From assembly GCA_016464795.1 (NCBI GenBank), contig JAEKNN010000009.1:1-64000 (forward strand): 64,000 bases of DNA, given 5' to 3'. Positions within the stretch are counted from its first letter, which is position 1. The number at the start of each line of letters is the position of its first letter. Shown in pieces: positions 17,283 through 42,936 of the stretch. The translations under genes and the position numbers were made by a program. This DNA comes from Candidatus Amunia macphersoniae (GTDB lineage Bacteria > Chloroflexota > Dormibacteria > Aeolococcales > Aeolococcaceae). The notes under the pieces are model-generated. The model worked only from the letters and a program-made list of their open reading frames with translations, had not been told where the DNA came from and made no database searches.

Positions 17283-18773
17283 CTAGCGCACGTTGGCCCC
17301 GAGTCGGCGCCGGTCACGACGAGTTCGCAACACGGGCGCTCCAATCAACAACCCGCCGAGCACGCCGAAAATGGGCAACAGCGTCGTGGCAGGACTCTCC
17401 GGCACCGCGGCCGCAGGCGCGATTGCGACAGTGTCACTGGCCGAAACCGGGGCGTTCGAAGCGTCTGTCGAGGTGACAGTGGCGACGTTCGTCTCGGTCG
17501 CAGGGGCGTTTTGAGCCACCGAGACCGGGACGCTCAACAACGGAAGCGTTGTGCCAGCAGCAATCGGCGCGGTCTGGCTTGCTGCTGTGGTGCAGCTCGC
17601 TGACGTCGAGCCGACCACAGTCGCGCTGCAGTCCCAACCGGAGCCGCTCGGAGGCGACGCCACCGTGAGCCCGGACGGCAGCGGGTCGTTGACGGTGACC
17701 GGGGTGCGCTCGGTTCCGCCTGATCCACTGATCGAAGCCGAGATCAAGAACGTCCCACTGCCGCCGGCGGTGAAGCTGCCACTGTGTGTCTTCTGCAGGG
17801 CGAGCTGGGGCAGCTGTTGCTGGGTGCTCGAGACCAGGTTGCGAATCTCGTGGACGTCGGTGAAGCTCCCGGTGGAGCCGGCGAACCCGAACTTGTACGT
17901 GGCCGGCGGATTCGGTGGCAGCGCTGTCTGCAAGAGCTGCTGGAGTCCGCTCCCGAAGTCGATCGACAGTGTCACGTGCGGAGAGGCGAGATTCGATGGA
18001 TCGACCACTATGTGCGCGCGCCGCAGGGCCCCACTTCGTATTGAGCCACCGTGAAGCGCGCCTGGCAGCGAGGAGTTGGTGGCGAGGAGGCAGTAGCCAG
18101 CGGTGCCGTTTCCGGGCCCGCGGATGCCGACGCTGTTGGGACCCGAGACGTTCGCCGTGGGTGTGCACCCGGTGCCCGAGAAGAAATCCCTCTCGAAATT
18201 CCCGAACTCGTCCAGGCCCACGCCCAGGAATCCGTTGTTGACACCCGGCATGCCGCCGAATGTCGAATAGCCCAGCGAACCACCGGGCTGCCCGGGTTTT
18301 GTCAGGTCGGTGGCACCGTCGACGAGGAAAAAGCTGATCCCATCTGCAGGCGGGGTGGAGCCGCCGTACATGAAGAAATCGAAGTCGACGGTCAGCCCGG
18401 CAGTGAACGGCTGGGCACGGTTGAACAGGATGAACCCGGCCTCCTGCAGGTTCGCGTCGGTGATACGAAATGTCCCGGCGCCGTCGGAGTCCGGGGTGCC
18501 GAGTGCGCAGCCCGGCACCGGCGTTTGGCTCGTGTTCGTGCCTGCGGTGAGACACGGCGTGAAGTTGGAGCCCCCGATGTGGAAGTTGGGGTCTGAGACA
18601 GTGGAGTGCGTGAAGGACTCGCTCACCAGCGGATCCGCGAGGGCGGAGGTGGTCACCAGCAAGGCGGCGGCCCCACCAGCGAGGCCGGCCACCATCCACC
18701 GGGTCATCCGCAACCCAGGGACACGTGCGATCCGGCTTGCCCGAGCGTCGACGCTCGCCCCCCCTGTGTTCAT
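17283..18773 (-). CDS. secreted lectin-like/DUF11 protein with C-terminal sorting signal
   Basis: A 496-residue exported protein. A signal peptide (WMVAGLAGGAAALLVTTSALA) precedes an L-type-lectin-like beta-sandwich, recognised by AGFILFNRAQPF, VDFDFFMYGG, ADGISFFLVDG and FLGVGLDEFGNF. A DUF11-like repeat follows (LALQKTHSGSFTAGGSG through VNDPLPSGLTV to VATVTS). The C-terminus has VPESP, a hydrophobic helix (TTLLPIFGVLGGLLIGAPVL) and RTRRDRRR, an exosortase-type tail. It is probably attached at the cell surface and binds glycans. GGAGGGGG precedes the ATG at 18773; an open extension upstream lacks homology. Confidence 0.8.
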   Translation of the reverse strand: MNTGGASVDARASRIARVPGLRMTRWMVAGLAGGAAALLVTTSALADPLVSESFTHSTVSDPNFHIGGSNFTPCLTAGTNTSQTPVPGCALGTPDSDGAGTFRITDANLQEAGFILFNRAQPFTAGLTVDFDFFMYGGSTPPADGISFFLVDGATDLTKPGQPGGSLGYSTFGGMPGVNNGFLGVGLDEFGNFERDFFSGTGCTPTANVSGPNSVGIRGPGNGTAGYCLLATNSSLPGALHGGSIRSGALRRAHIVVDPSNLASPHVTLSIDFGSGLQQLLQTALPPNPPATYKFGFAGSTGSFTDVHEIRNLVSSTQQQLPQLALQKTHSGSFTAGGSGTFLISASISGSGGTERTPVTVNDPLPSGLTVASPPSGSGWDCSATVVGSTSASCTTAASQTAPIAAGTTLPLLSVPVSVAQNAPATETNVATVTSTDASNAPVSASDTVAIAPAAAVPESPATTLLPIFGVLGGLLIGAPVLRTRRDRRRLGANVR

Positions 18774-18883
18774 GTGACCCCCTCCGCCCTTCTTCCGTGA
18801 CCATCGGATCTCAGAATGTCCGCGTACCACCGGCGTACCACGACCCACACCGGCACGGACCGGCCTGTGGGCAGTGCCAACCG

Positions 18884-21930: not shown

Positions 21931-23862
21931 CTACAGCGCCCGTCCCGCTGAGTGACGCCTCCGGCGCTGCCCCATGAAGGCCACCAGAGCACCCGCCGGC
22001 AGCAGCAACAGCAGCGCACCCGGCGCTTCGGGCGCGTTCACCGGCGGTACCGCGCTGCCATCGACTGGGAGCGTGAGGACGTCGGGGGACGCTGGGGTGA
22101 TGGGGAATGTGATCAGGCCTGGAGAGCGCGACCCGATGTACGCGTTGTCGGTCGATGCGACTGTCACCCGGATCCGGTGTCCCGGGGCGAACTGGTGAAC
22201 GATGCCGGGCAGCGTCAGCGTCACCGTGCTCACACCTGCAGAAAGCCGCGTCGGCGAGACCAGACGCTCGGGCAGCGTCACACTGCCGTCGGGGGCCACG
22301 TCGTAGATCTTGGTGAACAGCACCGGCTGGAGGCTGGGATCGGTGCTGGTGGCGAGCGGCGCGTTGACCGTCAGCTTCAGCGTCGGGATGCCCGCCTCCG
22401 CGGTCGCCGCAGTCAGCGGCGCTGTGGTGAACGACACCGACTCGCCCGCAGGATCCGTGGGCGGCACCAAGGAGAACGGCGACTGGTCCTGCACAGCTGA
22501 GGTCTCGGAATAGCTGGCCGGTTGTCCGCCCGCGGGATTGACGAGGCTGGGCGTGCCCGCCGCAATCGTCGAGGCGCTGGTCTGGAGCGTGCCGTCCGCC
22601 GATGGATACAGGGTCAGCGGGCTGCCGATCGGGTACGAGTCAGCCTTGCCGTAGGCGGCGGCGATGCTCGCCGGTGTGCCGCTGTTGTTGTCGGCGTAAT
22701 CACGGTAGTACTCCACGTTCGCCCCGGTGTTCACCGAGGTGTCGCCCTTGAGGTAGCGGTCGAACCAGTTCTGGATGAGGCCGGTCTCGTACAGGCCGCT
22801 GGGGTCTCCCCTGGCGGCGAACTCTCCGGGGCGCGGCGCGGAGTGGCTGTGCCCCCAGCTCTGAAACACCAGCTTCACCGGCGCACCGGTGGCCTTGATG
22901 AGGTTGTAGTTGGCCACCGCCTCGTCGAGGTTGAAGAGAGTGTCGGCCTCGCCTTGCAGGAACATGGTGGGGATGTGCACTTGGCCGGCGCTGCCGTATC
23001 CCACCATGGACGCGTGGCGCAGCAGAGCCAGCGTTTTTGGTGGGGGATAGCCGGCGGCGAAGCTCTCCGCCTCGGCCTGGCAGACCGCCAGGAGGAAGTT
23101 CTCGCACGGCGGCGGGTTGGGCGGCGGGATCGTGGGCGGCTGCTGAGTGGGCGTGGCGATCCCGTCAGCGAAGAAGAGCTCCGTCCACTGGTACTTGAGC
23201 ACTCCGGGCGGGCTGTCGGTGAACAGCAGCGAGGGGCTGGTGTTGTTGGGCCCGAGCGAGTAGCCCAGGTCGTTCCAGGTGATGATGGGGATGATGGTGC
23301 GCACGCGCGCATCCCTCGACGCTGTGGCGTACTGGATGGCTCCGCCATAGGAGCCGCCGATCATGCCGACCAGCGGCCCGGCGGAATCCTTCTTCACCTC
23401 GGGTAGGGTGGCGAGGAAATCGATGATCTGCGAGGCTGCCTTGCCGTCGTAGTCGGGGTCGTCGAGACTGATCTTGCAGCCGGTGCTCTGTCCGAAGCCC
23501 AATCCCGAGTACGAGAGCACGACATATCCCTGAGGCGCGAAGTAGAAGGCCAGCCCCGCCTGATCCGCCTTGGAGCCGCCGAAACCGTTGGTGGTCAGGA
23601 TCACCGGTGACGAGTTCGCGGGCGCCGGCACCGGCTCGTAGAGGTCATAGCTGACATTGCAGTGCTCTTGCGATGACGACGGCCCCACGGTGACCTGCAG
23701 GAACTTGTCAGACGTCAGCTTGCAGCCGGTGCCGCCGCTGGACTTGGCCTTGTTGTCACACGAGGTCGGCGCTGCGTGGGCGACGCTCGGCGACAGGCCG
23801 CTCAAGCCGGTCGACATCAGCGCCACGACCAACCCGACGCCCACGATGCGACCACCGGCCAT
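21931..23862 (-). CDS. secreted CocE/X-Pro dipeptidyl-peptidase-like hydrolase with sorting signal
   Basis: A 643-residue exported serine hydrolase. A signal peptide (GVGLVVALMSTGLSGLSPSVAHA) precedes an alpha/beta hydrolase with nucleophile in GGSYGG (S171), acid in GEADTLF and His in WGHSHSAP. A jelly-roll PepX_C-like domain follows (SFTTAPLTAATAEAGIPTL through RIRVTVASTDNAYIG). The C-terminus is APEAP, a hydrophobic helix (GALLLLLPAGALVAFM) and QRRRRH, a probable exosortase recognition tail. Relatives hydrolyse acyl esters or X-Pro peptides; the substrate here is unknown. GGGAGGGGAG stands just upstream of the ATG at 23862. Confidence 0.85.
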   Translation of the reverse strand: MAGGRIVGVGLVVALMSTGLSGLSPSVAHAAPTSCDNKAKSSGGTGCKLTSDKFLQVTVGPSSSQEHCNVSYDLYEPVPAPANSSPVILTTNGFGGSKADQAGLAFYFAPQGYVVLSYSGLGFGQSTGCKISLDDPDYDGKAASQIIDFLATLPEVKKDSAGPLVGMIGGSYGGAIQYATASRDARVRTIIPIITWNDLGYSLGPNNTSPSLLFTDSPPGVLKYQWTELFFADGIATPTQQPPTIPPPNPPPCENFLLAVCQAEAESFAAGYPPPKTLALLRHASMVGYGSAGQVHIPTMFLQGEADTLFNLDEAVANYNLIKATGAPVKLVFQSWGHSHSAPRPGEFAARGDPSGLYETGLIQNWFDRYLKGDTSVNTGANVEYYRDYADNNSGTPASIAAAYGKADSYPIGSPLTLYPSADGTLQTSASTIAAGTPSLVNPAGGQPASYSETSAVQDQSPFSLVPPTDPAGESVSFTTAPLTAATAEAGIPTLKLTVNAPLATSTDPSLQPVLFTKIYDVAPDGSVTLPERLVSPTRLSAGVSTVTLTLPGIVHQFAPGHRIRVTVASTDNAYIGSRSPGLITFPITPASPDVLTLPVDGSAVPPVNAPEAPGALLLLLPAGALVAFMGQRRRRHSAGRAL

Positions 23863-23963
23863 GCTCTCCCCTCCCGGCCCGGACGGACCGCACCTCGAAG
23901 GATACGCCGCCGTGCCTCGGTCCGTCTCTCCGCCCGCGCGTCGACCGCCCGGCATCCAGCGCG

Positions 23964-25543: not shown

Positions 25544-27217
25544 CTACCTCTGCAGAGGGCTGTGGCGACGGCGGCGCACCACAGTGGAGGCGATGAGCAC
25601 AGCACCTCCCCCCAAGGTCAGCCCGGGCACCCAGGGCGCTTCGGCGATCTGGCCACCCGCGGGTGGACACGCGTACTGGCTGTCGTACTCGGCGTAGAGG
25701 CTGGGGCCGCACTGCACGCGGGCGATCGATGCGTAGCGCGCGGTGCTCGCGGCGGTCCCGGTGTTGCAGACCTGGGGAGAACCGACGACATCGCTGGTGC
25801 ACTGGGATCCGTCACCCGTGGCGCAGGCACCGGTGCAGCCGTCCGCGTACCCGACGATGGCATGACCGTCCTCGTCGACTGTGATGTCCATGAAGTCGAG
25901 GAGGTTGCGCTTGCTTTTCGGGCAAGTGCCGATGCTGCCGGAGAGGTAGGTGCAGCCGCGCTCCACCGGGTCGGTGGGGGTGGTGTCGGTGACCGTCCAG
26001 TGCTGGCCGCCGTCGGTGGTGATCGCGAGATACAGGTCCCAGTGGCCCTTGAAGTTGACGTCCTCGGGATTGCCCGGAGTGGTGCTGCCGAGGAACGAGT
26101 ACGCGGCTCGACCGGGACCGCCGGCGATGACCTCGGGGAACTGCACGTTCTGGACGCCCACGGGGTAGCCGATGTCCACCGACGGAGCCCAGTTCAGCAC
26201 CCCACCGGCGCCCACCGTCGCGGTGGCGATCTTCGCCTTGCCGCCGATCTGGGTTCCACCCGGCGACTGGGTCACCGAGTCCTCGTAGCCGAAATACACC
26301 TTGCCACCCTGGTCGGCGTCGACGGAGGGATCACTGCGGAGGGTGGCATGGCTGTCCGGGATGGTCTGCACCTTCCAGGTGGTGCCGTTGTCGTTGGACG
26401 TCACCACCGCCTGGTAGGGGAAGGTGGCGGTGCCTGCGGGGGCCGTCGGGTCGGCCTGCTTGTCGCAGTTCTGGTTGGGGAGCATGTCCAGGCCGCCGCC
26501 GCTGGCTGGTGGGCCGCCGGGCACCGCCACCACAGGCTGGCTGACCCGGATGTGCCCGTGCAGTCCGCCGCACTGCAAGAAGCTGTACACGGGCACCCCG
26601 GTGGCGAAGCTGGCGCCGCCGGTGTCGCTGCGCGCGCAGAAGGCGGTGACCACGCTCTGGGAGCAGTAGAAGACGGCGTCCCCGAACGCCGTCGATTGCG
26701 GCGGAATGCCGGCGGGGTTGTACGGCCCGGCGCCGACGCTCTGATGGTCGGCTCCCGAGGGGACACCGCAGCCTTGGCCCGGAGTCCAGCTGCCACCGTC
26801 ATTGTCGGTGAAGGCGAAGAAGCTGCAGGCGCCGGCGAGCTGGCTCACGAAGGTGCGGTTGAAAGTCCTGTCGGTGAACAGGATGGGGTCGAGAGAGGTG
26901 GTCGCGGTTGGTCGGTAGCTGACGTCCTTCCACGTGTCCTTGGCCGGCTTGACCGTGTCGTCGAACTTCACGGAGAAGGTGTGCAGGCCGGACAGGTACA
27001 TGTTGGTGTCGGTGGCGTGATCGGAGCCGATCGAGGGCTCCTCGGCGGTGTTCTCGCCTGGTGTGCCGACCGGGGGGTGGTACTGCTGGACACTGAGGTT
27101 GCCCAGGGCGACGGTGACCACCGGCGCCGGGACATCCGCACGGGCAGTCCACGATGCTACGGTCACGATCGCCAGCGCGATCGTCAGGGCGGGTCCGAGA
27201 CGGCGTCCGAGATGCAC
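25544..27217 (-). CDS. secreted sialidase-like beta-propeller protein with sorting signal
   Basis: A 557-residue exported protein with a signal peptide (ALTIALAIVTVASWTARA). Asp-box-like blades are visible as TDNDGGSW, SNDNGTTWKV and TTDGGQHWTV, typical of BNR/sialidase propellers. Several Cys pairs suggest disulphides. I do not see the arginine triad of true sialidases clearly, so catalysis is unproven. The tail is AEAPWVP, a hydrophobic helix and VVRRRRH, parallel to the other two sorting tails. The GTG at 27217 follows GGAGG. It is divergent from the exosortase gene across a shared 246-base region. Confidence 0.78.
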   Translation of the reverse strand: MHLGRRLGPALTIALAIVTVASWTARADVPAPVVTVALGNLSVQQYHPPVGTPGENTAEEPSIGSDHATDTNMYLSGLHTFSVKFDDTVKPAKDTWKDVSYRPTATTSLDPILFTDRTFNRTFVSQLAGACSFFAFTDNDGGSWTPGQGCGVPSGADHQSVGAGPYNPAGIPPQSTAFGDAVFYCSQSVVTAFCARSDTGGASFATGVPVYSFLQCGGLHGHIRVSQPVVAVPGGPPASGGGLDMLPNQNCDKQADPTAPAGTATFPYQAVVTSNDNGTTWKVQTIPDSHATLRSDPSVDADQGGKVYFGYEDSVTQSPGGTQIGGKAKIATATVGAGGVLNWAPSVDIGYPVGVQNVQFPEVIAGGPGRAAYSFLGSTTPGNPEDVNFKGHWDLYLAITTDGGQHWTVTDTTPTDPVERGCTYLSGSIGTCPKSKRNLLDFMDITVDEDGHAIVGYADGCTGACATGDGSQCTSDVVGSPQVCNTGTAASTARYASIARVQCGPSLYAEYDSQYACPPAGGQIAEAPWVPGLTLGGGAVLIASTVVRRRRHSPLQR

Positions 27218-27463: not shown

Positions 27464-29224
27464 ATGAAGCGCGGTTCGTTCGACCTCACGGGCCTCCGCG
27501 AGCGGGGCAGCCAGTCGGCTGCGTCGTTTGCGATATGGGCGCGCGCCCACCGCGTTCTCTGGCCGGCGGCGGGCATCGTCCTGGTGGCGCTGATCGGCTA
27601 CAACCTCACGCTCGGCAGCATGGCCGACTACCTGCGCCTGGAGACGCCACTGGCGTACCTGCCGCTGTTGCCCTTCTTCAGCATCGGCATCGCGCTGTTC
27701 ACCGCCCACCGCTATCGCAACGCCCCGGCGCCGATCCGCGACCGCCAGATCGACTTCCTGATCGGGATCCCTCTGATCATCTTTGCCCTGGTGCTGATCA
27801 CCATCGTGCCCGCGCTGGCCTCCACCTACTACTGGAGCAACCGGCCGGATGTGCTGTCGCTGGCGCTGTTCGTCACGGGCTTGATCACCATCTTCTACGG
27901 CACCACCTGGATGTGGCGTGTCAAGGCGTCGCTGGTCTTCCTGGTGCTGATGTGGCCGGCCCTGTACCTGAACATCATGCCGGGCATCATGCAGTCGTTC
28001 ACCGACACCACCAACAGCGCGCTCGGTGCAGTGGTGGCTCACCTCTCGCTGGGGGTGACCCCCACCGGCTCCCCGGGCATCCTCGCCGTGCACCAGGCCT
28101 CCGGAATCCCGCTCACGGTGAGCGTCGGCAGTGCCTGCTCGGGGGCCGACTCCGTGCTGGGCTTCCTGCTCATCGGTGGTGCCATCCTCACCGCAGTCGG
28201 GGGCGGCGGCCTTCGCAAGGTGTCCTGGATGGTGGTGGGGCTCGTGCTCACCTTCTTGGTCAACGTGCTTCGTCTCACCTCGATCCTGGGGCTGGCCTCG
28301 GCAGGTCACCCGGACCTGGCTCTCGGCGGTTACCACGCTGTGATCGGCTTGATCCTGTTCACCGTCGTGGTGGCGCTGATGATGCGGCTGCTTCCGCTGT
28401 TCGGCCTTCAACCCCGCGCCGACGTGGTCGCCAGCCCAACCTCACGTCGCACCGCAGGCGCCGCCGCCCGGCCGCTTCCGAGTGTGCGGCGGCGTCAGGT
28501 CGTGGTCGGCGCCATGGCCACGCTGGCAGTGCTGGTGGGCCTCACCGACCACGCATTGGGTCCCTACGCCGCTTTCCAGGACGGAACCGGCTCGCCCAGG
28601 GTTCAACCTTTTTCGATGGCATCCGCCCCCGCGGGCTGGCGGATCAGCTACGAGGCGGACTATCCGTGGGCGACGCAGTACTTCGGCGCCAACTCGTCAT
28701 TCACCCGCTTCCTGGTGCAGGGCGCCCCCAAGCCGGCGGCCACGCCCCAGTCGGGCCAGCCCGCCACCACAGCCGTCAGCCAGAGCATCGTCTACGCGGA
28801 CGTGGTGCGGACCGATGACCGAGGGTCGCTGGACGCCTACAACCTGCAGAACTGCTTCCTGTTCCACAACTACAACATCGTTGCCTCGCAGAGGGTCGAC
28901 GTCGGCAACGGGGTGACGGCGCTGCTTCTCAACTACACCGACCCCGCCACACAGGCGAGCTGGGCCACGGTGTCGTGGGCCTGGCCGGTGGAGAACAAGG
29001 GCACGACATACTACGAGCGCGTGGCGCTCACATCCAGCCTTTTCACCGCGGGAGACGCCGACGTCTCGCCGAACGCTGGGCTGCACGGCATGGTGGTCGG
29101 CTTCCTGAACCTTCTCAACGGCAGCCACGACGACCCCAAGACGAACGCGCTCTACAAGAACGCGGACACGAGCCTGCAGGGAGAGGCGGCGGACCTGGTG
29201 CGCTTTGCGGTCAACCGTCACTGA
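27464..29224 (+). CDS. exosortase with fused C-terminal EpsI-like domain
   Basis: A 586-residue protein. About eight transmembrane helices (roughly residues 30-320) form the exosortase core: catalytic C225 in GSACSGADSVLG, R270 in VNVLRLTS and H291 in GGYHAVIG. Exosortases cleave C-terminal PEP-CTERM-like tails and pass proteins to surface attachment. After one more helix (about 355-375) an extracytoplasmic domain resembles EpsI: WRISYEADYPWATQYFG, then NCFLFHNYNIVASQ. GGGGA is five bases before the ATG at 27464. The next gene (a GH5-like protein) begins 51 bases downstream, probably in the same operon. Confidence 0.85.
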   Translation: MKRGSFDLTGLRERGSQSAASFAIWARAHRVLWPAAGIVLVALIGYNLTLGSMADYLRLETPLAYLPLLPFFSIGIALFTAHRYRNAPAPIRDRQIDFLIGIPLIIFALVLITIVPALASTYYWSNRPDVLSLALFVTGLITIFYGTTWMWRVKASLVFLVLMWPALYLNIMPGIMQSFTDTTNSALGAVVAHLSLGVTPTGSPGILAVHQASGIPLTVSVGSACSGADSVLGFLLIGGAILTAVGGGGLRKVSWMVVGLVLTFLVNVLRLTSILGLASAGHPDLALGGYHAVIGLILFTVVVALMMRLLPLFGLQPRADVVASPTSRRTAGAAARPLPSVRRRQVVVGAMATLAVLVGLTDHALGPYAAFQDGTGSPRVQPFSMASAPAGWRISYEADYPWATQYFGANSSFTRFLVQGAPKPAATPQSGQPATTAVSQSIVYADVVRTDDRGSLDAYNLQNCFLFHNYNIVASQRVDVGNGVTALLLNYTDPATQASWATVSWAWPVENKGTTYYERVALTSSLFTAGDADVSPNAGLHGMVVGFLNLLNGSHDDPKTNALYKNADTSLQGEAADLVRFAVNRH

Positions 29225-29275: not shown

Positions 29276-30571
29276 GTGCAGGGCGCTCAAGCGCCTCCAA
29301 GTAGAGGACCCAAGAGGAGGCCGGTGAGGCGCCGGCTTTGGCTCGGCGTCTCTGCGGTTGCATTCGCCGTGGTGACTGCGGGCTCGCTGTCGGCCCTGGC
29401 GACTCCTTCAAGCGCGCCAGTGTCGAGGGCGTCGCTGGCCGCTTGGCACTCGCTGCTCTACCCCGCTGATCAGTTGTTCGGCGAGGCTCAGAGAGCATCA
29501 GAAGAGGCAGCACCTGGGATCGTGCGCTCTGTCGGAGTCCACCTGGTGCTCGATGGTCAGCCGTGGCGCTTTGTCGGCTTCGACGACTACCAGCTCACCT
29601 CGCAGCTGTACAGCGACGGCTTCACCTGCGGTGGCGAGCACTCCGATGCCGAGGTGGACCAGACGTTGGCGCAGATGAGCCGCATGGGAGTGACTGTGGT
29701 CCGCACCTGGTTCTTCCAGAGCTATGTCGCGGGTCGAGGCTGGGCGGCGTTCGACCGCGTCCTCGACCTTGCTGGCAAGTACGGAATCCGTGTGATCCCC
29801 GTGCTCGCCAACCAGTGGGGGGCATGTGAGGAGTACAAGCAGGCAGCGCAGGTGTACAGGTCAATCGCCTGGTACCGGTTCGGCTACAGGATCAACCGCG
29901 AGTACGGCGTGGCTCTGCCGTACCGAGACTATGCGCTCAGCGTTGCTCGTCATTATGCCGGTGACCCGCGCATTGCCTTCTGGCAACTCATGAACGAGGC
30001 GGAAGCGCTCGACTTCCTAGGTGGCACGTGCGATGAAGCCCAAGCATCCCGAGCCCTCAGATCCTTCGGCGACGACATGTCGCTCGCGCTCAAGTCAGTG
30101 GACGGTGCTCACCTGGTGAGCTTGGGCACCCTCGGCGGTTCGCAATGCGGGACTGTCGGCCCTGACTTCCAGTTCATCCACGCCGGGGCCGTCGACATCT
30201 GCGAGTACCACGATTACCAACCGACACCTCAACGTGGAGCCAACCGCTGCCTGGCGCTGGGCAAGCCCACCTTCGTCGGAGAGCGTGGATTCGCCAGTGA
30301 CGTGGGGACGCGACAGACCACGGCGCAAACCCTGACCACGCGCGCCGGCTACGTGAAGCGGGACATCGAGAGCGTCTTTGGAGACGACCGGTGCGTGGGT
30401 TACCTGCTGTGGTCCTGGGGAAGCGAGAGCACCGCCTACGATGTCGGTCCCCAAGACCCGATCGCCCAGGTGCTGCTTGCTGATTCCAGGACGATCACCA
30501 GGCCGCTGGCGGTCTATCTCACTGTGTGGCTGGCAGCTCGAGCTGGGGCATCCACCCACGCCGCTCGGTGA
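29276..30571 (+). CDS. secreted GH5-like glycoside hydrolase
   Basis: A 431-residue protein with an N-terminal signal or anchor (LWLGVSAVAFAVVTAGSLSALA) and a TIM-barrel of the GH5/mannanase type. The acid/base is E241 in QLMNEAEA and the nucleophile candidate is E336 in PTFVGERGF. Upstream GQPWRFVGFDDYQL and VVRTWFFQS are shared with endo-mannanases. The aromatic platform ends in LLWSWGSES. It may trim or process surface polysaccharide. GGAGG lies 9 bases before the GTG at 29276. It follows the exosortase closely and is convergent with a paralogue 43 bases away. Confidence 0.82.
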   Translation: MQGAQAPPSRGPKRRPVRRRLWLGVSAVAFAVVTAGSLSALATPSSAPVSRASLAAWHSLLYPADQLFGEAQRASEEAAPGIVRSVGVHLVLDGQPWRFVGFDDYQLTSQLYSDGFTCGGEHSDAEVDQTLAQMSRMGVTVVRTWFFQSYVAGRGWAAFDRVLDLAGKYGIRVIPVLANQWGACEEYKQAAQVYRSIAWYRFGYRINREYGVALPYRDYALSVARHYAGDPRIAFWQLMNEAEALDFLGGTCDEAQASRALRSFGDDMSLALKSVDGAHLVSLGTLGGSQCGTVGPDFQFIHAGAVDICEYHDYQPTPQRGANRCLALGKPTFVGERGFASDVGTRQTTAQTLTTRAGYVKRDIESVFGDDRCVGYLLWSWGSESTAYDVGPQDPIAQVLLADSRTITRPLAVYLTVWLAARAGASTHAAR

Positions 30572-30614: not shown

Positions 30615-32768
30615 TCAGGAGCCCGCCGCATAGAACTGGGTCGGGTAACCGAAGGACCCGCCGGTGTTCGTTTCGACCCAGATGGCGCTCGAGCTGGCTA
30701 CCACGGCCGAAGCGCGCCCGCTACCATCCACGTCGGCCATGTACTCCGAGTCCGCATGGAAGGGCACCGATGCCCAGAGCTGCGGTGACGAGAAGCCGCC
30801 GCCGGAGCCGAGGTTGGCCTCCACCCAGATGCTCGAGTCGTTCATCGCCACCAGGGAGCAGCGCCCGCTGCCATCGAGGTCGGCGAGCACGGTGGCGCGG
30901 CTCCCGTAGAAGGGAGTGCTGGTCCACTGCGCCGGCCGTCCGAAGTACCCTCCGGCGTTGGGCAGGACCCAGACGCTGTCGCCGTTGACCGCCACCGCGG
31001 AGGCACGGCCGCTGCCGTCGACGATGGCCATGTAGGTGCCACGGTTGCCATAGAAGGCTCCGCTCGACCACAGCTGCGGGGAGCCGAAGTGGTTGCCCTG
31101 GTTGAGCTCAACCCAGATGCTGTCGTCGTTGATGGCGACCATCGAGGCTCGGCCGCTACCGTCGATGTCCGCCAGGTACGTTCCGCGGCTGCCGTAGAAG
31201 AGGCCGCTCGACCAGATCTGAGGGAAGGAGAGGGCGCCCGACCCGGTGTTGAGCTCCACCCACACGCTGTTGTCATTGACCGCCACCGCCGACGCGGGCT
31301 TGCCCTTGCCAGAGAGGTCGGCGAAGACGGTTTCGCGGGTTCCGTAGAAGAGGTTGGTCGACCACGTCATGGGGTTGGTGAAACCGTGGCCGCTGGGTTG
31401 AGCCGCGGCGATGCGGTGGCTGCTCATCGAGATTGCTGAAACGGCGCTGCCATTCCCCAGTTGGGCGAGATGCACGGAGGCACCCAGGTCGAGAGGACTC
31501 GCCGGAGCCACCTGCGGCGGGTTGACTGGAGCGACCTGCGGCGGGTTGACTGCAGCGACCTGCGGAGCGTCGGCTGGAGGGGCCTGTGGAGCGTTGCCAG
31601 CGGGCATCACGCGCCTTTGAGTCGCTGCCATCGCTGCCTCGGTCGGATCCCCCGGGCCAACATCAAAGCCCGCGCTTGGTCCAAGTGTCGTGCTCCAGAT
31701 CAAAAAGCCAACCGAACCGAGCTGGAACTGGGCTGTCATCTTTTGCTGGAAGAACGCCGCCCGCTGCTGGCGGGAGGCAACGCTGACCACTCCACTGCTC
31801 GTCCAGTCAGCCTGGACAGATGCGTCGACTCCGACCTCGCCGGCGAAGATTGGCTTGCCGAGAGCGTGGCAGAAGTTGATGCTCGAGACTGCACCGTTCC
31901 ACTGCTGTCCACCCAGCGCGCCCTGCCAGTAGTCATGGATCTCGCAGATGTCGATGTTGCTGCCGGCGTGGATGTACTGATAGGCGCTTCCCTGGGTGCC
32001 GCACTGGCCGCCGCCCATGGTGCCGAGGTTGATCAGGTGATTCCTGTCCACGGCTTTCATGCCGCCGGCGACATCGTCGGCGAATGACCGCAATGCCGAC
32101 GCGCCGCTGTTGTTGTCACAGGCGCCGTAGGGGCTGTCTTTGGCTTCCGCCTCGTTCATGAGCTGCCAGAACGCGATGGTGGGATTGCCAGCGTAGTGGG
32201 CAGCCATGGCAACCGCGTAGTCCCGGTATGACAGTGCGTAACCGTCACCGGCGGTCCTGTACCCGTCTTCGTACCAGCCCCGGCCCTTGTACGTTCCCGA
32301 TGGTTCGCAGTCGCCCCACTCGTTGCCCAGTGTGGGGATGACCTTGATGCCTCTGGCGGCGGCCGCGTTCAGCACGCGGTCGAACTGTTGCCAGTGTCCG
32401 GGTCCGCCGTAGCTCTGGAAGAACCAGGTGCGCACGGCGGCGCTCCCGGAGCTCCGTTGCATCTCATCAAGAATCGCGCCGACGGCCTGATCCGATACGG
32501 TGCCGCCGCACTGGTAGCCGTTCGCCACCGATGGAAGCTGATAGGAGTTGTAGCCGGTGAACGACCATGGCTGCCCGTTGAGGGACAGACTGGTGCCGGC
32601 TGCCGTCACAAATGGGCTCGCGGACGCGAGCCGGGTTGCCGACGGCAGGGCTAGGGATGCTCCCGCCCCGACCGATACAAGAACTGTCAAGACCGCCGTG
32701 ATCGCGCATATGCACGCACGGCGGCGCCAGTGTACGGACCGCGACGGACGAACGTGCAGGATGCGCAT
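30615..32768 (-). CDS. secreted GH5-like protein with FG-GAP/VCBS-type repeats
   Basis: A 717-residue exported protein: signal or anchor segment (residues 19-41), a GH5-like barrel (about 55-390) with acid/base E206 in QLMNEAEA and nucleophile candidate E311 in IFAGEVGV, a Pro-rich linker (about 395-430), and a C-terminal propeller. The propeller has about six repeats of the pattern FYG-x-R-x-T-x-x-A-D-x-D-G-S-G-R followed by WVE-x-N-x-G. The DGSGR loops look like calcium-binding FG-GAP turns. It is a paralogue of the convergent upstream protein with an added binding module. It could act on or bind the locally made glycan. Confidence 0.83.
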   Translation of the reverse strand: MRILHVRPSRSVHWRRRACICAITAVLTVLVSVGAGASLALPSATRLASASPFVTAAGTSLSLNGQPWSFTGYNSYQLPSVANGYQCGGTVSDQAVGAILDEMQRSSGSAAVRTWFFQSYGGPGHWQQFDRVLNAAAARGIKVIPTLGNEWGDCEPSGTYKGRGWYEDGYRTAGDGYALSYRDYAVAMAAHYAGNPTIAFWQLMNEAEAKDSPYGACDNNSGASALRSFADDVAGGMKAVDRNHLINLGTMGGGQCGTQGSAYQYIHAGSNIDICEIHDYWQGALGGQQWNGAVSSINFCHALGKPIFAGEVGVDASVQADWTSSGVVSVASRQQRAAFFQQKMTAQFQLGSVGFLIWSTTLGPSAGFDVGPGDPTEAAMAATQRRVMPAGNAPQAPPADAPQVAAVNPPQVAPVNPPQVAPASPLDLGASVHLAQLGNGSAVSAISMSSHRIAAAQPSGHGFTNPMTWSTNLFYGTRETVFADLSGKGKPASAVAVNDNSVWVELNTGSGALSFPQIWSSGLFYGSRGTYLADIDGSGRASMVAINDDSIWVELNQGNHFGSPQLWSSGAFYGNRGTYMAIVDGSGRASAVAVNGDSVWVLPNAGGYFGRPAQWTSTPFYGSRATVLADLDGSGRCSLVAMNDSSIWVEANLGSGGGFSSPQLWASVPFHADSEYMADVDGSGRASAVVASSSAIWVETNTGGSFGYPTQFYAAGS
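31504..31599 (-). repeat. 24-bp tandem repeats encoding a Pro-rich linker
   Basis: Four consecutive 24-bp units are present. The first two (31504-31527 and 31528-31551) differ at one base; the others are more diverged. They encode the repeated N-P-P-Q-V-A-P linker between the catalytic barrel and the propeller. Confidence 0.75.
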
Positions 32769-32994: not shown

Positions 32995-34743
32995 CTAGCC
33001 GCGACCGGTCGGACCTGTGATGCGGTACAGCCGCCACTCTCCCATCGGATCGCCGGTCACCGAACCGACGAGCTGAGAGAACCCGGCGCCATCCTTCCAG
33101 AGGGTGGGGTACAGCACGTTCAGCCGGTCATATGCCGCCTGCCCGGTGGGCGGTGGCACCAGGAAGTATTCCACGCCATACACCTGAGGCTGACCCGCGG
33201 CACCCTCGAACACCTCATCGCTGGTGACGATGAATTGCTTTGGGTTTGGCGCATTGAGGATGACCGGGAAGCAGGTGGTCGAGTCGCACAGGATTCGGCC
33301 GGTGTCCTTGTCGAGGGCCAGGATCTTCGGTGTGACCTCGGCGCCGATGTCGATCTTGTTGCGCTGGCCGGTGGCCTGGGGCACATTCTTGCCGGCGACC
33401 AGGGCGGCGTAGAGCGGTGCCTCCTGGGGGGCCAGGGCCGGATTGGACAATGTCTGTGCTGTCAGCAGGGTGGAGACGGCAAGCGCCGGCACCATGCCCA
33501 GTGCAGTCAGCGTTGACAGGATGGCGCCCCTGCGACCGCCAAGTGACCGCAGCACATAGATCGCCATCAAGAACGTGAACGGGATGATGGCGATCTGATA
33601 TCGAATGTCCGGTGCCAACCCACCCCGAATGATGAAGATGTCCAGTGCTGGGATGGAGGCTCCGAGCACGAGCAGCACGATCCCTGAGACGCGCTTCGCC
33701 TTGATCAGCAGCCGCGCTCCGACCAGTCCGATGAACAGCACGACAGCGGGAAAGAGCGCGAGCGAGTGGCCGAGGATGAACGTCGCCGCCTCCCTGTACG
33801 TATCGAAGCGGATGAGCCCATACGCGGAGAGGCGGTTGGTGCCGGCGTTGGGATCCGGCGGTGCGATCGGGTGCGCGATCGCGGGGCCGGCCGCGGGCAC
33901 GCTTGCCGCCGCTTGGGACGGTGAACCGATGCCGTTGGCGTGCAACCAGTAGATGGGGTCGTGCATGATGATCGCCATCGACCCGATCCACAGCATGGTC
34001 ACAAACACAGCCGGCAGGGCGTAGAGCAGCAGCTCCGTCTCCACCTCGCGCCATCTGCCTCCATTGCGGACGGTTTGCACGGTCACCCCGACGCCGAGCA
34101 GAAAAGCGACGGCGAATGCCTCGTTGCGGCACAGACAGCCGCCTCCGGCGAGCACACCCAGCAGCGGCAGGAGAGAGGTGCGACGGTTCTCACTCCACCG
34201 CAGGAACACCAGGATGGATGCGGTGAAGAAGAAGACGAACATCGCCTCGCTCATGCCTTGAGCGGCGTAGATGATGGTCATCGGGTTGACCACCCAGATG
34301 AGGCAGAAGACCCAACGCATGGCCCGCACCACACCAGCCCAACGCAGCCCGCTGTTGATCACCACAGCTGTTCCTGCGCTGAATGCGGCCGCCTCGATGG
34401 ATCCGGCGAACCCGTGCCCGACCAGGGCTGGCCACACCCCGTTGAACGCCAGGAACGGAAGCTGCAGGAATGAGGGCAGTGGCGGCCAGAAGAAGCCGAT
34501 ACCCCCGAGGTGGGGGTCGCTGGTGTACAAGACGTCGAACGCGTTGTCGGTTCTCGCGTATGCATCGTCGATCATGTAGTGCATGCGAAAGACGAGGAAG
34601 TTGGCGATCACTATGTAGAAGGCCAGCGCCAGCCCGAAGAGGATGAAGTTCTCGAAGGGGAATTTCCGAAGGCTGGGCTTGCGCCGTGCACGTGCCCTGG
34701 TCGCTGGGACATGCCGTGGGAAGACGGCGCTCGCCGTGGCCAC
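32995..34743 (-). CDS. polytopic membrane protein, GT-C (ArnT/PMT-like) glycosyltransferase candidate
   Basis: A 582-residue protein with about eleven transmembrane helices. The first extracytoplasmic loop holds acidic residues (MIDDAYARTDNAF) and then PHLGGIGFFWPPLPSFLQLP, resembling loop 1 of GT39/GT83 mannosyl- or arabinosyltransferases that use polyprenyl-linked sugars. The C-terminal 150 residues are extracytoplasmic. The start is a GTG placed directly after the TGA of the upstream MshEN-GT2 gene, with no gap, so both are co-translated. A role in transferring sugars on the outer face is inferred. Confidence 0.65.
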   Translation of the reverse strand: MATASAVFPRHVPATRARARRKPSLRKFPFENFILFGLALAFYIVIANFLVFRMHYMIDDAYARTDNAFDVLYTSDPHLGGIGFFWPPLPSFLQLPFLAFNGVWPALVGHGFAGSIEAAAFSAGTAVVINSGLRWAGVVRAMRWVFCLIWVVNPMTIIYAAQGMSEAMFVFFFTASILVFLRWSENRRTSLLPLLGVLAGGGCLCRNEAFAVAFLLGVGVTVQTVRNGGRWREVETELLLYALPAVFVTMLWIGSMAIIMHDPIYWLHANGIGSPSQAAASVPAAGPAIAHPIAPPDPNAGTNRLSAYGLIRFDTYREAATFILGHSLALFPAVVLFIGLVGARLLIKAKRVSGIVLLVLGASIPALDIFIIRGGLAPDIRYQIAIIPFTFLMAIYVLRSLGGRRGAILSTLTALGMVPALAVSTLLTAQTLSNPALAPQEAPLYAALVAGKNVPQATGQRNKIDIGAEVTPKILALDKDTGRILCDSTTCFPVILNAPNPKQFIVTSDEVFEGAAGQPQVYGVEYFLVPPPTGQAAYDRLNVLYPTLWKDGAGFSQLVGSVTGDPMGEWRLYRITGPTGRG

Positions 34744-36654
34744 TCAGTCGCCTCCCGGCGCATCGGTGGATGCCGCGCCCACCAGCTCAACCGCCGCAGG
34801 CCCCACGGGCTCATGCTCGTAGAGCCCGTGAACCGTCTTCTCCCAGAAAGTGGGCTTGGTCACCAACTGCAGGCTGGCCTTGAGCATGGCGAGGCTTGCC
34901 ATGAGCCAGTAGACGGGTGAGAGCGCGCCGGCGTGGGTGAGGTCATAGCTGCGTCGATGCGAGGCGCACCACACGCCCATGTACAGGAAGAAGAAATTCC
35001 CGAAGACCAGCTCGATCATGCCGACGTAGTAGATGCCGTTGGGGAAGAGGAAGGCGATCACGTTGAACTGGGCCATGATCCACATCAGTGTGAGCAACCA
35101 CACCAACAGGTTGAGCAGCGCCACGACGAAGGTGCCACCGAGAGTCAGCTGAATGGCAGCCAAGGCGCGCCCGCCCACAGTCCTCCGGAGCAGGCGCGGG
35201 TGACGCATCAATACCAGCCAGCTGATGAAGTAGCCCTTGCCCCAGCGTGAGCGCTGACGCATCCAGTTGACGAAGTCGCTGTTGGCCTCTTCGAGAGTCA
35301 TCGATTCCATCAGGGCCGTCCTGTATCCGGCTCTGTGAAGGCGCATGCCGAGGTCGGCGTCCTCGGTCACGTTGTTGGGATCCCAGGCCCCCAGGTCGCG
35401 CAACAACTGTGTGCGAAAGTGGTTGGAGCTTCCCCCGAGCGGCACCGGGAGGCCGAGGTCGACGAGGCCTGGCAGGAAGAAGTCGAACCAAGCTGTGTAC
35501 TCGAGTGAGAACCACTTGGTGACCACGTTCTGTCGAGGGTTGTAGTAGTTGAGCTTTGCCTGGACGCATCCGATGTCGGCAGGGCTGCGGCGGAACACTG
35601 CCAGTGCCTTCTTGAGCTGGTCGGGCTCTGGGATGTCCTCGGCGTCGTAGATGACGCAGTACTCGCCGCGGGCGAACTGGAGGCCGTAGTTGCAGGCTTT
35701 CGGTTTGGTCCGAGGACCCTCGGCCGGCACCACGATCACGTCGAAGTTGGGCGGCAGCGCAGAGGCGAACACAACGTCGAGCGTCTCGAGGTCGTCCTCC
35801 TCGAGCAGCAACTTCACGTCGAGCTTGCTCTTGGGGTACTCGAGATCCGCACACGCCTTGATCAACTGGGGCAGCACACCGGCCTCGCGGTACAGCGGGC
35901 ACAGGATGGTGTAGACGGGAAGATCGGTGAGCGCTTCGATGTCCTCACGCGGCACCTCGATCAGGTCGACCGACTTCGCGCCACGGACCGTCACGTAGAT
36001 GCGGAACATCACGATGGCCGCGTACAACGTGACCACGGCTCCCGCCAGCGAGAGGAAGAATGTTCCCGGTGCCAGCACGATCGCGACCAGACAGAGGAAC
36101 CCGACGACCAGCAGCAACCGCTTCTGCGCGAGCGACAGCGTGATGTGCGCCGAGGACTCGGGGTCGCGCGCCTGGAGCAATCCGATGCTGTGCTGAGTCA
36201 GCTGTTGGCGGTAGACCTGCTCCTGACGCCGTCGAAGCCCCGCCGGGGTGGACAGGCAGGGCTTGACGCGCATCCCCAGAGCCTCTTCCACATAGGCGCG
36301 TGCCCAGGGGTCGCGCGGGTTGGCCATGGCAACCACGGCGACACCCTCACGCGCTCGAATGGGGAGGACACGCCGGGCAATGGCGTCTGCAGCATCCAGC
36401 TCATTGGCGATGGCGGGATCGACCCAATGGTTGTCGAGGTCGACGACTCCACATCCCCACTGCGTCGCCAGGGCGTTCCATACGTCGTCCTGCCGTGCCG
36501 CTCCGCCAAGGATCAGCGCCTCACCGAGAGGGATCCTGTCTCGACGGTGCCGCGCCAATCCTTGACTCAGTGCCGCCTCATCCACAGCCCCTCGCCGAAC
36601 CAACAGCTCCCCGAGCCGCGCGACCGCGTGATCCTCCTTCTTGACGACGGCCAT
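34744..36654 (-). CDS. cellulose-synthase-like GT2 with N-terminal MshEN domain
   Basis: A 636-residue membrane enzyme. Residues about 12-150 form an MshEN (GspE N-terminal) domain with RLGELLVRRGAVDEAAL and LGEALILGG, a fold that binds c-di-GMP in some ATPases and synthases. Two helices (about 179-222) precede a processive GT2 domain with acidic D287/D288, DAED at 337-340, TED at 430-432 and QRSRW at 467-471. Three or four C-terminal helices follow. This matches bacterial beta-glycan synthases of the NfrB/BcsA type. It is the first gene of a pair with the GT-C-like protein. Confidence 0.9.
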   Translation of the reverse strand: MAVVKKEDHAVARLGELLVRRGAVDEAALSQGLARHRRDRIPLGEALILGGAARQDDVWNALATQWGCGVVDLDNHWVDPAIANELDAADAIARRVLPIRAREGVAVVAMANPRDPWARAYVEEALGMRVKPCLSTPAGLRRRQEQVYRQQLTQHSIGLLQARDPESSAHITLSLAQKRLLLVVGFLCLVAIVLAPGTFFLSLAGAVVTLYAAIVMFRIYVTVRGAKSVDLIEVPREDIEALTDLPVYTILCPLYREAGVLPQLIKACADLEYPKSKLDVKLLLEEDDLETLDVVFASALPPNFDVIVVPAEGPRTKPKACNYGLQFARGEYCVIYDAEDIPEPDQLKKALAVFRRSPADIGCVQAKLNYYNPRQNVVTKWFSLEYTAWFDFFLPGLVDLGLPVPLGGSSNHFRTQLLRDLGAWDPNNVTEDADLGMRLHRAGYRTALMESMTLEEANSDFVNWMRQRSRWGKGYFISWLVLMRHPRLLRRTVGGRALAAIQLTLGGTFVVALLNLLVWLLTLMWIMAQFNVIAFLFPNGIYYVGMIELVFGNFFFLYMGVWCASHRRSYDLTHAGALSPVYWLMASLAMLKASLQLVTKPTFWEKTVHGLYEHEPVGPAAVELVGAASTDAPGGD

Positions 36655-38428: not shown

Positions 38429-39481
38429 GTGGACGGTGAGGTAGAGGTGGGAGCCGATCGCGGCGCAACGGTGCTATGGCCTTCTCGCGCTGAGAGCATT
38501 CCCCGCGTCTCCGTGGTCATCCCCACGTACAACCGCGCGCTGCGTCTCGAACGCCTGCTTCGGGCTCTCCACCAGTGCACAATGCCGCCTGGGGGGATGG
38601 AGGTGATCGTCGTCGACGACGGTTCCTCAGACAGCACAGCCGCGGTGGCAGCTGACGCCGACGTCACCTATCTCGCCCAGACAAATGCGGGCCCCGCGGC
38701 CGCTCGGGAGGTGGGCTGGCGCTCTGCACGTGGGGAGATCGTGGTCTTCCTCGATGATGACGTCGTCCCGGAGCTGGACGCCGTCGAAAGACTGGTCAGC
38801 GCGCTCGACGAGGCCGATGGGGTCGGAGCCGCGATCCTGTGTCTCGACGAGACATCCCTCATCGCCAACTACATGCACGTGGATGGATTGGTGAACCACA
38901 AGGTCACCGAAGGCACCGTGCTGTGGTTGATCACGGCGGCTGCGGCCTTCCGCCGGGACGCCCTGGAGCGGGTCGGCGGCTTCGACCTGGATTTCCCGCG
39001 AGCCGCCGGCGAGGACGTGGATCTCAGCCTCCGCCTCCTCGAGGCCGGCTGTGTGCTTCGCCTGGAGCCCACTGCATTGGTGCGACACGACCACCATTCC
39101 TCCTTCGCGCAGCTGATGGGCACCTGCCACCGCTACGGAACCGCCTACACGTTGCTCGCCGCCCGGCATGTCGCGCATCGCAGGGACCGCAAGCGGTCAG
39201 CGTTGCTTCGTTTGAGCCCCACCGAGTGGGTGCGCGTCTTCATGGGCTACCGCCGGGTTGCGTCCGTGCCCCGCAGCCTCGCATTCGTTGGCCTCCACGC
39301 TTTTGTCGGGCTGCCCTACGCGCTGGGCATCCTCGCCGGCGCTCGAGCGGCTGCCACGACCTCTCCGCGGTTCACCGACCTTCAAATTGTCGGACGTGCC
39401 CAGGCCGCCGCGGCCGTGGACGCCGAGCCCGCTGCCGCGGACCAGCAGGTCGGCAGAGAGCACGCCGCTCCGGCGGCGTGA
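38429..39481 (+). CDS. GT2 family glycosyltransferase (paralogue A)
   Basis: A 350-residue GT-A fold transferase. RVSVVIPTYNRALRLERLL opens the domain, EVIVVDDGSSD binds the nucleotide, EIVVFLDDD is the metal-binding motif and AGEDVDLSLRLLEAG is the C-terminal acidic motif. A hydrophobic tail suggests membrane association. It is closely similar to the genes ending at 44005 and 44880. The GTG at 38429 follows GGGAGGGGAGG. It is first on the plus strand after a divergent region with a TATAGA -10-like box near 38354. Confidence 0.88.
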   Translation: MDGEVEVGADRGATVLWPSRAESIPRVSVVIPTYNRALRLERLLRALHQCTMPPGGMEVIVVDDGSSDSTAAVAADADVTYLAQTNAGPAAAREVGWRSARGEIVVFLDDDVVPELDAVERLVSALDEADGVGAAILCLDETSLIANYMHVDGLVNHKVTEGTVLWLITAAAAFRRDALERVGGFDLDFPRAAGEDVDLSLRLLEAGCVLRLEPTALVRHDHHSSFAQLMGTCHRYGTAYTLLAARHVAHRRDRKRSALLRLSPTEWVRVFMGYRRVASVPRSLAFVGLHAFVGLPYALGILAGARAAATTSPRFTDLQIVGRAQAAAAVDAEPAAADQQVGREHAAPAA

Positions 39482-39608
39482 TCTCACCCGGCGGCGCCTC
39501 GGACAGCCACTCCGGCTCGCCGGCCTGGAGCAGAGTTCACGGGTGACGCGCCGGGGGCATCGGGTATCGGTCCCGTCCCTTAGGGCGTTCGAACTGTCGA
39601 ATACCGTC

Positions 39609-40853
39609 ATGCGCGTGGTGGGACGCGGCGCCGTTCTCCTTACCGCCATCGCTGGCGCCGCGATCGTCGTGCTGCGTCGTCCGGACGCTGTGCTCCACGC
39701 GCAGTTCTGGGCCGAGGATGGGCCGTTATGGTTTGGCCAGGCGTGGAACGGTGGCTCCTTACACGCGCTGACAACGTCCTACTCCGGTTATCTGCAGACA
39801 CTTCCCCGGCTCCTGGCGCTGCCTGCGGTAGCCCTCGGACTGCGCCACGCTCCCCTGCTTTTCAATGCCAGCGCCATCGCTATCCAGGTCGCGCCGGCAG
39901 TATTCTTTGTCAGCAACCGTTGCGAGTCGCTGGTACCACGGCGGTCAGTTCGTGTACTGGTCGCGTTTCTGTACCTGCTTCTTCCCAATGGCGAAATCAA
40001 CGCCAACATCACCAATGCACAGTGGCACCTTGCGCTGCTTGCCTTTCTGGTGATCGTGGCGCGTCGGCCACGTAGCCGATGGGCACGTGCTCTCGACTGC
40101 ATAGTTGTCGCGGTCTCCTGCCTCAGCGGGCCGTTTTGCCTGGTACTCGTGCCTGTCGCAGCTGCTTGGTGGTGGCGGCGTCGTGGCAACGGAATGCTCT
40201 GGCTCGGGAGCGCGGCGACCGCGGCAACCGCGATCCAGGTGGCAGCACTCCTCCTGTCGACGAGGCCAAGTCCTCCTCATCTGGGCGCTTCGATTGGTGG
40301 AGCGATGGTCATCTTCGCCAATCGCGTGGTGCTCGCCGGCTCGTTTGCACAAGACCAAGCGCCATTTCTGCTGGCCGACTCAGGACGGAGCAACGCCCTG
40401 TGGGCCATTCCTGTCACCATCGTTGGCATCGGTGTGCTTGGCACCACACTTCTCCGAGGTCCGCTCAGCCTTCGTCTGTTCGTCCTTGCTGCCGGAGTGG
40501 TGATGCTCGGAGGAATGCTCGACGCTCGGCAGGATCCCGGGCAACCCCCCCTGTGGCGTGGAATGGCGACTCCACCTTTCGGCGGGCGCTACATCTTCAT
40601 GATGGAGGTTGCCTGGATGGTGTCTGTGATCTGGGTCGCCAGTCGTCTGCCCCGACCGCGGATCCGCATTCTCGGGGTCACTGCGGCTTGCACATGCTTC
40701 GTGTCAGGCGTAGCGATACATTGGTCATACGCTCCCTACGCCGACCTTCATCCGGAGCGGTACGCGTCCCAACTCGAGCGCGCAGGGCGTGGGACAATCG
40801 TCACTGTCCCCCTCAACCCACCGGGTTGGACCGTCACGCTCGTAGCGCACTAG
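39609..40853 (+). CDS. polytopic membrane protein, possible GT-C glycosyltransferase
   Basis: A 414-residue hydrophobic protein with about ten transmembrane segments. The first extracytoplasmic loop contains HAQFWAEDGPLWFGQAW, then SYSGYLQTLPRLLALP, which recalls the acidic loop of GT-C enzymes acting on lipid-linked sugars. I recognise no specific family. The ATG at 39609 lies just before the first helix; GTG at 39543 is also possible. Gene order places it in the glycan locus, 127 bases after a GT2. Confidence 0.6.
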   Translation: MRVVGRGAVLLTAIAGAAIVVLRRPDAVLHAQFWAEDGPLWFGQAWNGGSLHALTTSYSGYLQTLPRLLALPAVALGLRHAPLLFNASAIAIQVAPAVFFVSNRCESLVPRRSVRVLVAFLYLLLPNGEINANITNAQWHLALLAFLVIVARRPRSRWARALDCIVVAVSCLSGPFCLVLVPVAAAWWWRRRGNGMLWLGSAATAATAIQVAALLLSTRPSPPHLGASIGGAMVIFANRVVLAGSFAQDQAPFLLADSGRSNALWAIPVTIVGIGVLGTTLLRGPLSLRLFVLAAGVVMLGGMLDARQDPGQPPLWRGMATPPFGGRYIFMMEVAWMVSVIWVASRLPRPRIRILGVTAACTCFVSGVAIHWSYAPYADLHPERYASQLERAGRGTIVTVPLNPPGWTVTLVAH

Positions 40854-40946
40854 AGCCCAGATCTCTCACCAAGGTCTCGGTGCCGAGCCGGGCGACACGG
40901 CACACGTCGCGTTCAAGCCGGCGAGACCCGGCCCATCTGCCAGCTC

Positions 40947-40952
40947 TATACT
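40947..40952 (+). promoter_or_regulatory. -10 box upstream of the nucleotide-sugar dehydrogenase operon
   Basis: TATACT stands 50 bases before the ATG at 41003, with no good -35 hexamer at 17 bases. It would start a short leader for the three-gene operon 41003-43955. Confidence 0.45.
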
Positions 40953-41002
40953 TGGGCTCGGAACGGAGGGAGATCGCGTAGGAGCGGAAGCAGTTTCACG
41001 CT

Positions 41003-42196: not shown

Positions 42197-42936
42197 GCCC
42201 CCGCGTCTCAATTGTGATTCCGGCCTACAACGAGGGGCCGAGCATCAACACGTGCCTCGATCGCATATTCGAGGCGGTGTCCATGCCGTGCGAGGTCCTC
42301 GTCGTCTACGACGCTCCTGACGACACCTCAGTGCCCTACCTCCAGGAGTATGCAGAGAAGGAGCCTCGGGTCAGGCCGACCCTCAACGAGTACGGCCGCG
42401 GCCCCGCCGCTGCGATTCGATTCGGCATCGACCGAGCCGCCGCAGAGGTCGTGGTGGTGACCATGGCCGACGGAAGCGACGACCCCGAGCAGATCGAGCA
42501 GTTGACGCGTCTCGTGGAGCGGGGGGTCGTTGTGGCCGCTGCGTCTCGGTACGTGCACGGTGGCCAGCAGGTGGGTGGCCCCTGGTTGAAAGGGAAGATC
42601 TCGCACCTGGCCGGATACTCGCTTCATCTGATCGCGAGAGTCGGCACTCGGGATGCGACCAACTCGTTCAAGGCGTACCGCACCACGTTCGTTCGCCAGG
42701 TGGGCATCGACTCCGATGCTGGTTTCGAGATGGGGATAGAGATGGTGGCGAAGGCCAGACGACTGGGCCTGCCGGTCGCCGAGGTGCCGACCATCTGGTT
42801 GGACCGCGGCGGTGGCCAGTCGAACTTCAAGACCCGCGCCTGGATCCCTCGCTACCTCCGCTGGTATCTCCATGCCCTTCGACCAGGGCGTCGGACCAGC
42901 GCACCGCCTCCTCTGATCGAGCGCGTCTCACGATGA
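42193..42936 (+). CDS. GT2 family glycosyltransferase, dolichol-phosphate-mannose-synthase-like
   Basis: A 247-residue transferase with VSIVIPAYNEGPSINTCL, EVLVVYDAPDDTS, the acidic VVTMADGSDDPEQ and RGGGQSNFKTRAWIPRYLRW near the C-terminus, which is the R-x-x-G-x-S-x-F arrangement of DPM1/GtrB-like polyprenyl-phosphate glycosyltransferases. No C-terminal helices follow, so it is a soluble or peripheral form. It could load a polyprenyl phosphate for the GT-C proteins nearby. GTG at 42193 overlaps the dehydrogenase, and its end overlaps the epimerase, each by four bases. Confidence 0.88.
   Translation: MSPRVSIVIPAYNEGPSINTCLDRIFEAVSMPCEVLVVYDAPDDTSVPYLQEYAEKEPRVRPTLNEYGRGPAAAIRFGIDRAAAEVVVVTMADGSDDPEQIEQLTRLVERGVVVAAASRYVHGGQQVGGPWLKGKISHLAGYSLHLIARVGTRDATNSFKAYRTTFVRQVGIDSDAGFEMGIEMVAKARRLGLPVAEVPTIWLDRGGGQSNFKTRAWIPRYLRWYLHALRPGRRTSAPPPLIERVSR

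Follow-up and report, generated by a model that had tools for sequence, protein, structure and literature searches.

About 27 proteins of the Dormibacteria draft genome analysed here end in a short C-terminal tail, PExP. This tail is very probably a sorting signal of the PEP-CTERM/exosortase kind in which the motif is shifted to P-E-x-P, and it is putatively processed by an exosortase of 602 aa. Judged by their sequences, the PExP tails and the long exosortase look like a distinct sub-type of the known PEP-CTERM/exosortase sorting system. The P-E-P feature and the class cut-offs of that system failed here, while homology was kept. Therefore, we count the PExP system as a variant of the PEP-CTERM/exosortase kind. 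A literature search of partial coverage found no paper combining Dormibacteria with exosortase or PEP-CTERM.

Three C-terminal tails in the window

The window is a stretch of 64,000 nucleotides and forms part of a 114 kb contig (C10) of a 2.9 Mb Dormibacteria draft genome. The closest named relative, judged by the exosortase, is Ca. Aeolococcus gillhamiae (71% identity). In an earlier reading of the window (hereafter the sequence-only reading), the tails VPESP, APEAP and AEAPW had been noticed before a helix. These tails (AVPESPA, NAPEAPG and IAEAPWV) were confirmed at the true C-termini of three minus-strand ORFs, each followed by a hydrophobic helix, an Arg cluster and the stop codon (Table 1). 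The NAPEAPG motif lies 35 aa ahead of the stop, and the tail of the BNR-like protein reads, in its longer form, QIAEAPWV before the helix and the Arg cluster. The range given for the signal in the sequence-only reading, 21931-22030, covers the helix and the Arg cluster but only a part of the motif (22018-22038). The carriers come from different protein families (CocE/NonD-S15 hydrolase, lectin-like + DUF11, and BNR-like), and therefore the three tails are more than a chance resemblance. All three proteins have an N-terminal hydrophobic segment. A screen of the window for C-termini with a helix and basic residues, blind to the motif, returned seven ORFs, and [PA]-E-x-P occurred in exactly these three. 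Another minus-strand ORF (18884-21913, 1009 aa), located between two of the tail-bearing genes, showed weak AAA/NACHT-like and TPR matches and possibly encodes a large transcriptional regulator.

Table 1 Features of the window
Feature	Position	Strand	Remarks
Exported protein, PExP tail	17283..18848	-	weak lectin-like and DUF11 matches, both under Pfam cut-off
AVPESPA + helix + RTRRDRRR	tail 17286..17408, motif 17388-17408	-	C-terminus of lectin-like/DUF11 exported protein
CocE/NonD family hydrolase, N-terminal signal-like segment and PExP tail	21931..23955	-	TIGR00976, 90.1 bits (cut-off 66.3)
NAPEAPG + hydrophobic helix + QRRRRHSAGRAL	tail 21934..22038, motif 22018-22038	-	C-terminus of CocE/NonD (S15) hydrolase
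BNR/Asp-box-like exported protein, AEAPW tail	25544..27217	-	weak match; divergent neighbour of exosortase
IAEAPWV + helix + RRRRH	tail 25547..25648, motif 25628-25648	-	C-terminus of BNR-like exported protein
Long exosortase, 602 aa	27416..29224	+	multi-helix EpsH domain (residues 65-326) and extra C-terminal domain
Predicted catalytic Cys241 in ACSG (C-x-G)	28136..28138	+	invariant in 26 Chloroflexota exosortases
Predicted catalytic Arg286 in NVLR (N-x-x-R)	28271..28273	+	invariant in 26 sequences
Predicted catalytic His307 in HAVIG (H-x-x-x-G)	28334..28336	+	nearly invariant in set including short enzymes
Conserved extra C-terminal domain, about residues 390-545	28583..29050	+	no Pfam/NCBIfam match
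Exported glycoside-hydrolase-like protein	29276..30571	+	weak GH42 match
GH5/cellulase + FG-GAP protein	30615..32768	-
PMT-like membrane glycosyltransferase	32995..34743	-	weak match; syntenic partner of exosortase in relatives
MshEN + membrane glycosyltransferase family 2	34744..36654	-	syntenic partner of exosortase in relatives
Polysaccharide genes	38429..43955	+	two GT2s (38429-39481, 42193-42936)
UDP-glucose/GDP-mannose dehydrogenase	41003-42196	+	within polysaccharide genes 38429..43955
NAD-dependent sugar epimerase	42933-43955	+	within polysaccharide genes 38429..43955

The tail family and its motif

A hidden Markov model (HMM) built from the three window tails retrieved some 25 more tails from this genome, mostly at ORF ends, and a model built from 25 tails gave 27 matches in this genome at E up to 0.001. 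From relatives, 25 tails were read and one more was picked by its position, making 26. No relative was found in viral contigs. The consensus of 51 tails is [P/A]-E-[A/T/S/V]-P-[W/L/A], and its positions are conserved across relatives. Position 1 is Pro in 43 of the 51 tails and Ala in the other eight, and is mostly preceded by Val, Ile, Leu or Thr. The Glu (50/51) and the Pro at position 4 (50/51) are nearly invariant; position 3 is Ala (26), Thr (10), Ser (9) or Val (6), and position 5 is most often Trp (22), Leu (12) or Ala (9), all these counts being partly circular because E-x-P tails had served as seeds for the tail HMM, a circularity that the tails picked by position answer in part. Invariance of only the Glu and the last Pro, as proposed at first, holds for the three window tails and not for the larger set, in which position 1 is constrained as well. 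Therefore, [V]-P-E-[A/T/S/V]-P-[W] describes the class best.

Many of the substrates encoded on contig C42 of this genome look like BNR-type paralogues, and the tails there are not all independent. In one region of this contig (L114, G000:C42:17001-37000), exported BNR/beta-propeller-like proteins of large size (about 530-810 aa) are encoded in a cluster; almost all of them carry PExP tails, and one carries PEAK.

The exosortase of the window

The exosortase encoded beside the BNR-like protein was the only one found in this genome. It passed the cut-offs of TIGR04178 (40.8 bits, cut-off 23) and PF09721 (56.1 bits, cut-off 25.7), and hydropathy revealed about 8-9 hydrophobic segments between residues 46 and 333, as in a multi-pass membrane protein. 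On the other hand, it scored under the cut-off for every listed model of the named classes XrtA to XrtY (E up to 10). The nearest NCBIfam models for the enzyme domain, all below cut-off, were XrtW (31 bits, cut-off 425), XrtA (31.5 bits, cut-off 208), XrtD (VPLPA; 20.4 bits, cut-off 400), XrtV and XrtX, the last two reaching best E-values of only 5e-11 and 4e-7 among ten long enzymes.

The extra C-terminal domain carries conserved motifs such as C-x-x-F-H-x-Y and Y-x-R (residues 390-545). It matched no Pfam family in 10 long exosortases (E up to 10) and no NCBIfam family in that of the window. Some known exosortases carry an EpsI fusion at this place (PMC1569441). The EpsI model (TIGR02914/PF11984), however, gave no Pfam match in the 10 long exosortases at E up to 10 and none for the window enzyme in NCBIfam. 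An AlphaFold model of the exosortase, based on a two-sequence alignment, had a pLDDT of 38.5, too low to be of use. The sole match in a PDB profile search, a rhodopsin, was rejected as chance.

Tails and exosortases occur together

Among 50 genomes of the order, an exosortase was found in ten and tails in ten, with both in nine (Fisher's exact test: P = 3.9e-8). In the tenth exosortase genome (G274), the gene directly upstream of the exosortase ends in a VPEVP tail, which was missed by the HMM. The only tail-bearing genome in which no exosortase was found (G264) is a draft that is 79% complete and in 400 contigs. In a sample of 251 genomes of the phylum, tails were found in seven of the eight genomes with a long exosortase. 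Four other genomes gave tail matches, namely G184, G067, G237 and G069 (E = 4.7e-4), and the first three were read. Those of G067 and G237 proved to be other sequences and thus false positives, and that of G184 proved to be a true PEP-CTERM tail, PEPATL.

Tail-bearing genes also adjoin the exosortase itself. Tails picked by this position read PESP in G259, PEAP in G268, G276, G127, G115, G167 and G247, PEVP in G274 and G119, PEAP in both of two genes in G053, and AEAP in the window. All of them conform to [PA]-E-[ASV]-P, and no P-E-P was seen among them. Because the HMM was seeded with E-x-P tails, these tails, chosen only by the adjoining exosortase gene, weigh most. No adjacent PExP gene was seen at the long exosortase of G177, nor at the second one of G119. 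The latter (L032, G119:C28) adjoins an open frame (6409-9135) with a glycosyltransferase-like part followed by a sortase domain (PF04203, E = 4e-25), and its other neighbour has no PExP motif. In G053 (L030, G053:C175), two tiny ORFs (3038-3310 and 3344-3589; 90 and 81 aa) lie directly upstream of the long exosortase. Each begins with a signal-like N-terminus, continues with about 25-30 residues that include W-C-K and a further Cys, and ends in a PEAP tail; their processing would release or anchor a mini-peptide.

Two exosortase clades and two motifs

The PExP system resembles PEP-CTERM (TIGR02595/PF07589) and EpsH in many respects: the tail is tripartite, occurs in many copies per genome on unrelated exported proteins and has a phylogenetic profile matched to that of an EpsH-family enzyme, the enzyme has the C-x-G, N-x-x-R and H-x-x-x-G residues, and polysaccharide genes lie nearby. 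We therefore considered whether the tails could simply be PEP-CTERM signals whose motifs are loosely kept, the enzyme being an ordinary, if divergent, exosortase and no separate recognition class existing. The tripartite layout and the enzyme superfamily (TIGR04178 and PF09721, both over cut-off) are in common, and single tails score near the PEP-CTERM model. When ten tails were compared singly with the named CTERM models at their cut-offs, only one passed any of them (PEP_CTERM, TIGR02595, 17.1-17.8 bits, cut-off 16), so that the tails as a group are not claimed by a named class. A search of the genome with PF07589 (E up to 0.001) returned no match, and the controls gave none either. However, P-E-P is near-invariant in PEP-CTERM, whereas Pro was found at position 3 in none of the 51 tails and position 4 is almost always Pro.

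The enzymes argue in the same direction. In an unrooted tree, a 100/100 branch divides the long exosortases (~600 aa), one of which is unsurely placed, from the short ones found in the phylum. The short-exosortase genomes G184, G081 and G011 have strict, canonical VPEP tails, which align one residue off the PExP tails. VPEP thus goes with the short enzymes and PExP with the long ones, suggesting, in this small sample, that the two motif types belong to two enzyme clades. Taken together, these observations make ordinary PEP-CTERM an unlikely description of the tails. They favour the proposal of the sequence-only reading that a new recognition class is matched to a divergent exosortase, as the tails track a separate exosortase clade claimed by no named Xrt model. 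The loci of the three short-exosortase genomes (L139-L141 and L143) also place canonical VPEP in Chloroflexota, though PEP-CTERM was first described as confined to bacteria with an outer membrane.

Comparison with other named systems

The claim that the motif differs from classical P-E-P thus stands, but the P-E-x-P spacing has a precedent in PExPT-CTERM, the target of exosortase J (XrtJ). It could be supposed that the PExP family is part of this named system, with which it shares, by the NCBIfam name (TIGR04200), the spacing, and six of 27 tails showed weak TIGR04200 matches (best E 0.0018). However, two tails scored 15.4 and 17.3 bits against a cut-off of 40, and the motif is followed by Trp, Leu or Ala instead of Thr. 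Furthermore, the window exosortase had no XrtJ model match at E up to 10, and XrtJ was not in the 25 most-matched families of the ten long exosortases. Membership of the PExP family in the XrtJ system is therefore very improbable.

Still harder to credit is that the tails are cell-wall sorting signals for the PF04203 sortases of these genomes, with the exosortase acting on something else: the tripartite layout is that of LPXTG signals and would likewise serve cell-surface anchoring, some tails weakly match the LPXTG anchor model, and sortases were found in all eight exosortase genomes tested, but the sortase is an unrelated enzyme, the motif lacks an LPXTG-like Thr or Gly, tail genes adjoin exosortases, and the exosortase tracks the tails almost one to one, whereas sortases also occur in 12 of 13 related genomes lacking both tails and exosortase, independently of the tails, and so do not explain them.

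Cell envelope and proposed mechanism

Haft et al. (2006, PMC1569441) found PEP-CTERM to be restricted to outer-membrane bacteria. In contrast, Omp85, used as a single outer-membrane marker, was absent in all eight draft genomes tested here, with controls matched in seven genomes. This absence agrees with the placement of the Chloroflexota lineage as monoderm (PMC10608941). PExP tails probably anchor surface proteins in bacteria that seem to have no outer membrane. Archaeosortase A of Haloferax, which acts on PGF-CTERM in cells without an outer membrane, provides a model: it removes the C-terminal tail in a Cys-dependent manner and surface proteins are attached to lipid (PMC7157517). It differs from the present system in being archaeal, in its PGF motif and in its enzyme class. 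In several relatives, membrane glycosyltransferase family 2 and PMT-like genes, identified by eye from their similarity to the window pair, adjoin the exosortase.

On this basis, a mechanism can be proposed for the PExP system. The tail proteins, given their N-terminal hydrophobic segments, would first be exported by a signal peptide. The C-terminal helix and the Arg cluster would then retain the protein in the membrane and leave the PExP motif immediately outside it, as the tripartite layout suggests. The 602-aa exosortase, with Cys241, Arg286 and His307, may recognise PE-[ATSV]-P and cut near the motif by analogy with archaeosortase A and sortase, forming an acyl-enzyme on Cys241 from which the protein would be transferred to an amine-bearing acceptor. 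From the gene neighbourhood, the acceptor would most likely be a membrane lipid or a polysaccharide synthesised by the glycosyltransferases encoded nearby; such transfer is modelled on archaeosortase A (PMC7157517) and cyanoexosortase B (PMC12188702). One enzyme may serve about 27 surface proteins in this genome, while several relatives appear to have an exosortase beside one or two dedicated substrates. We tentatively propose, at somewhat less than an even chance, that single-membrane Chloroflexota/Dormibacteria possess a new exosortase class, marked by its additional C-terminal domain, which works alongside sortases and in an archaeosortase-like manner: it would cleave P-E-x-P tails and pass about 27 surface proteins on to a lipid or a polysaccharide.

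Until now, exosortase recognition has been linked with P-E-P and with exopolysaccharide-bearing bacteria that have an outer membrane. A system with many substrates in genomes that lack Omp85 is relevant to the destination of exosortase products. The motifs of the two clades, VPEPATL and VPE[AST]PW, differ by a shift of one residue, so that swaps between them can test what motif recognition is based on. Through the PExP tail, two dozen surface proteins of uncultured soil bacteria, which are missed by current annotation, also become recognisable from sequence.
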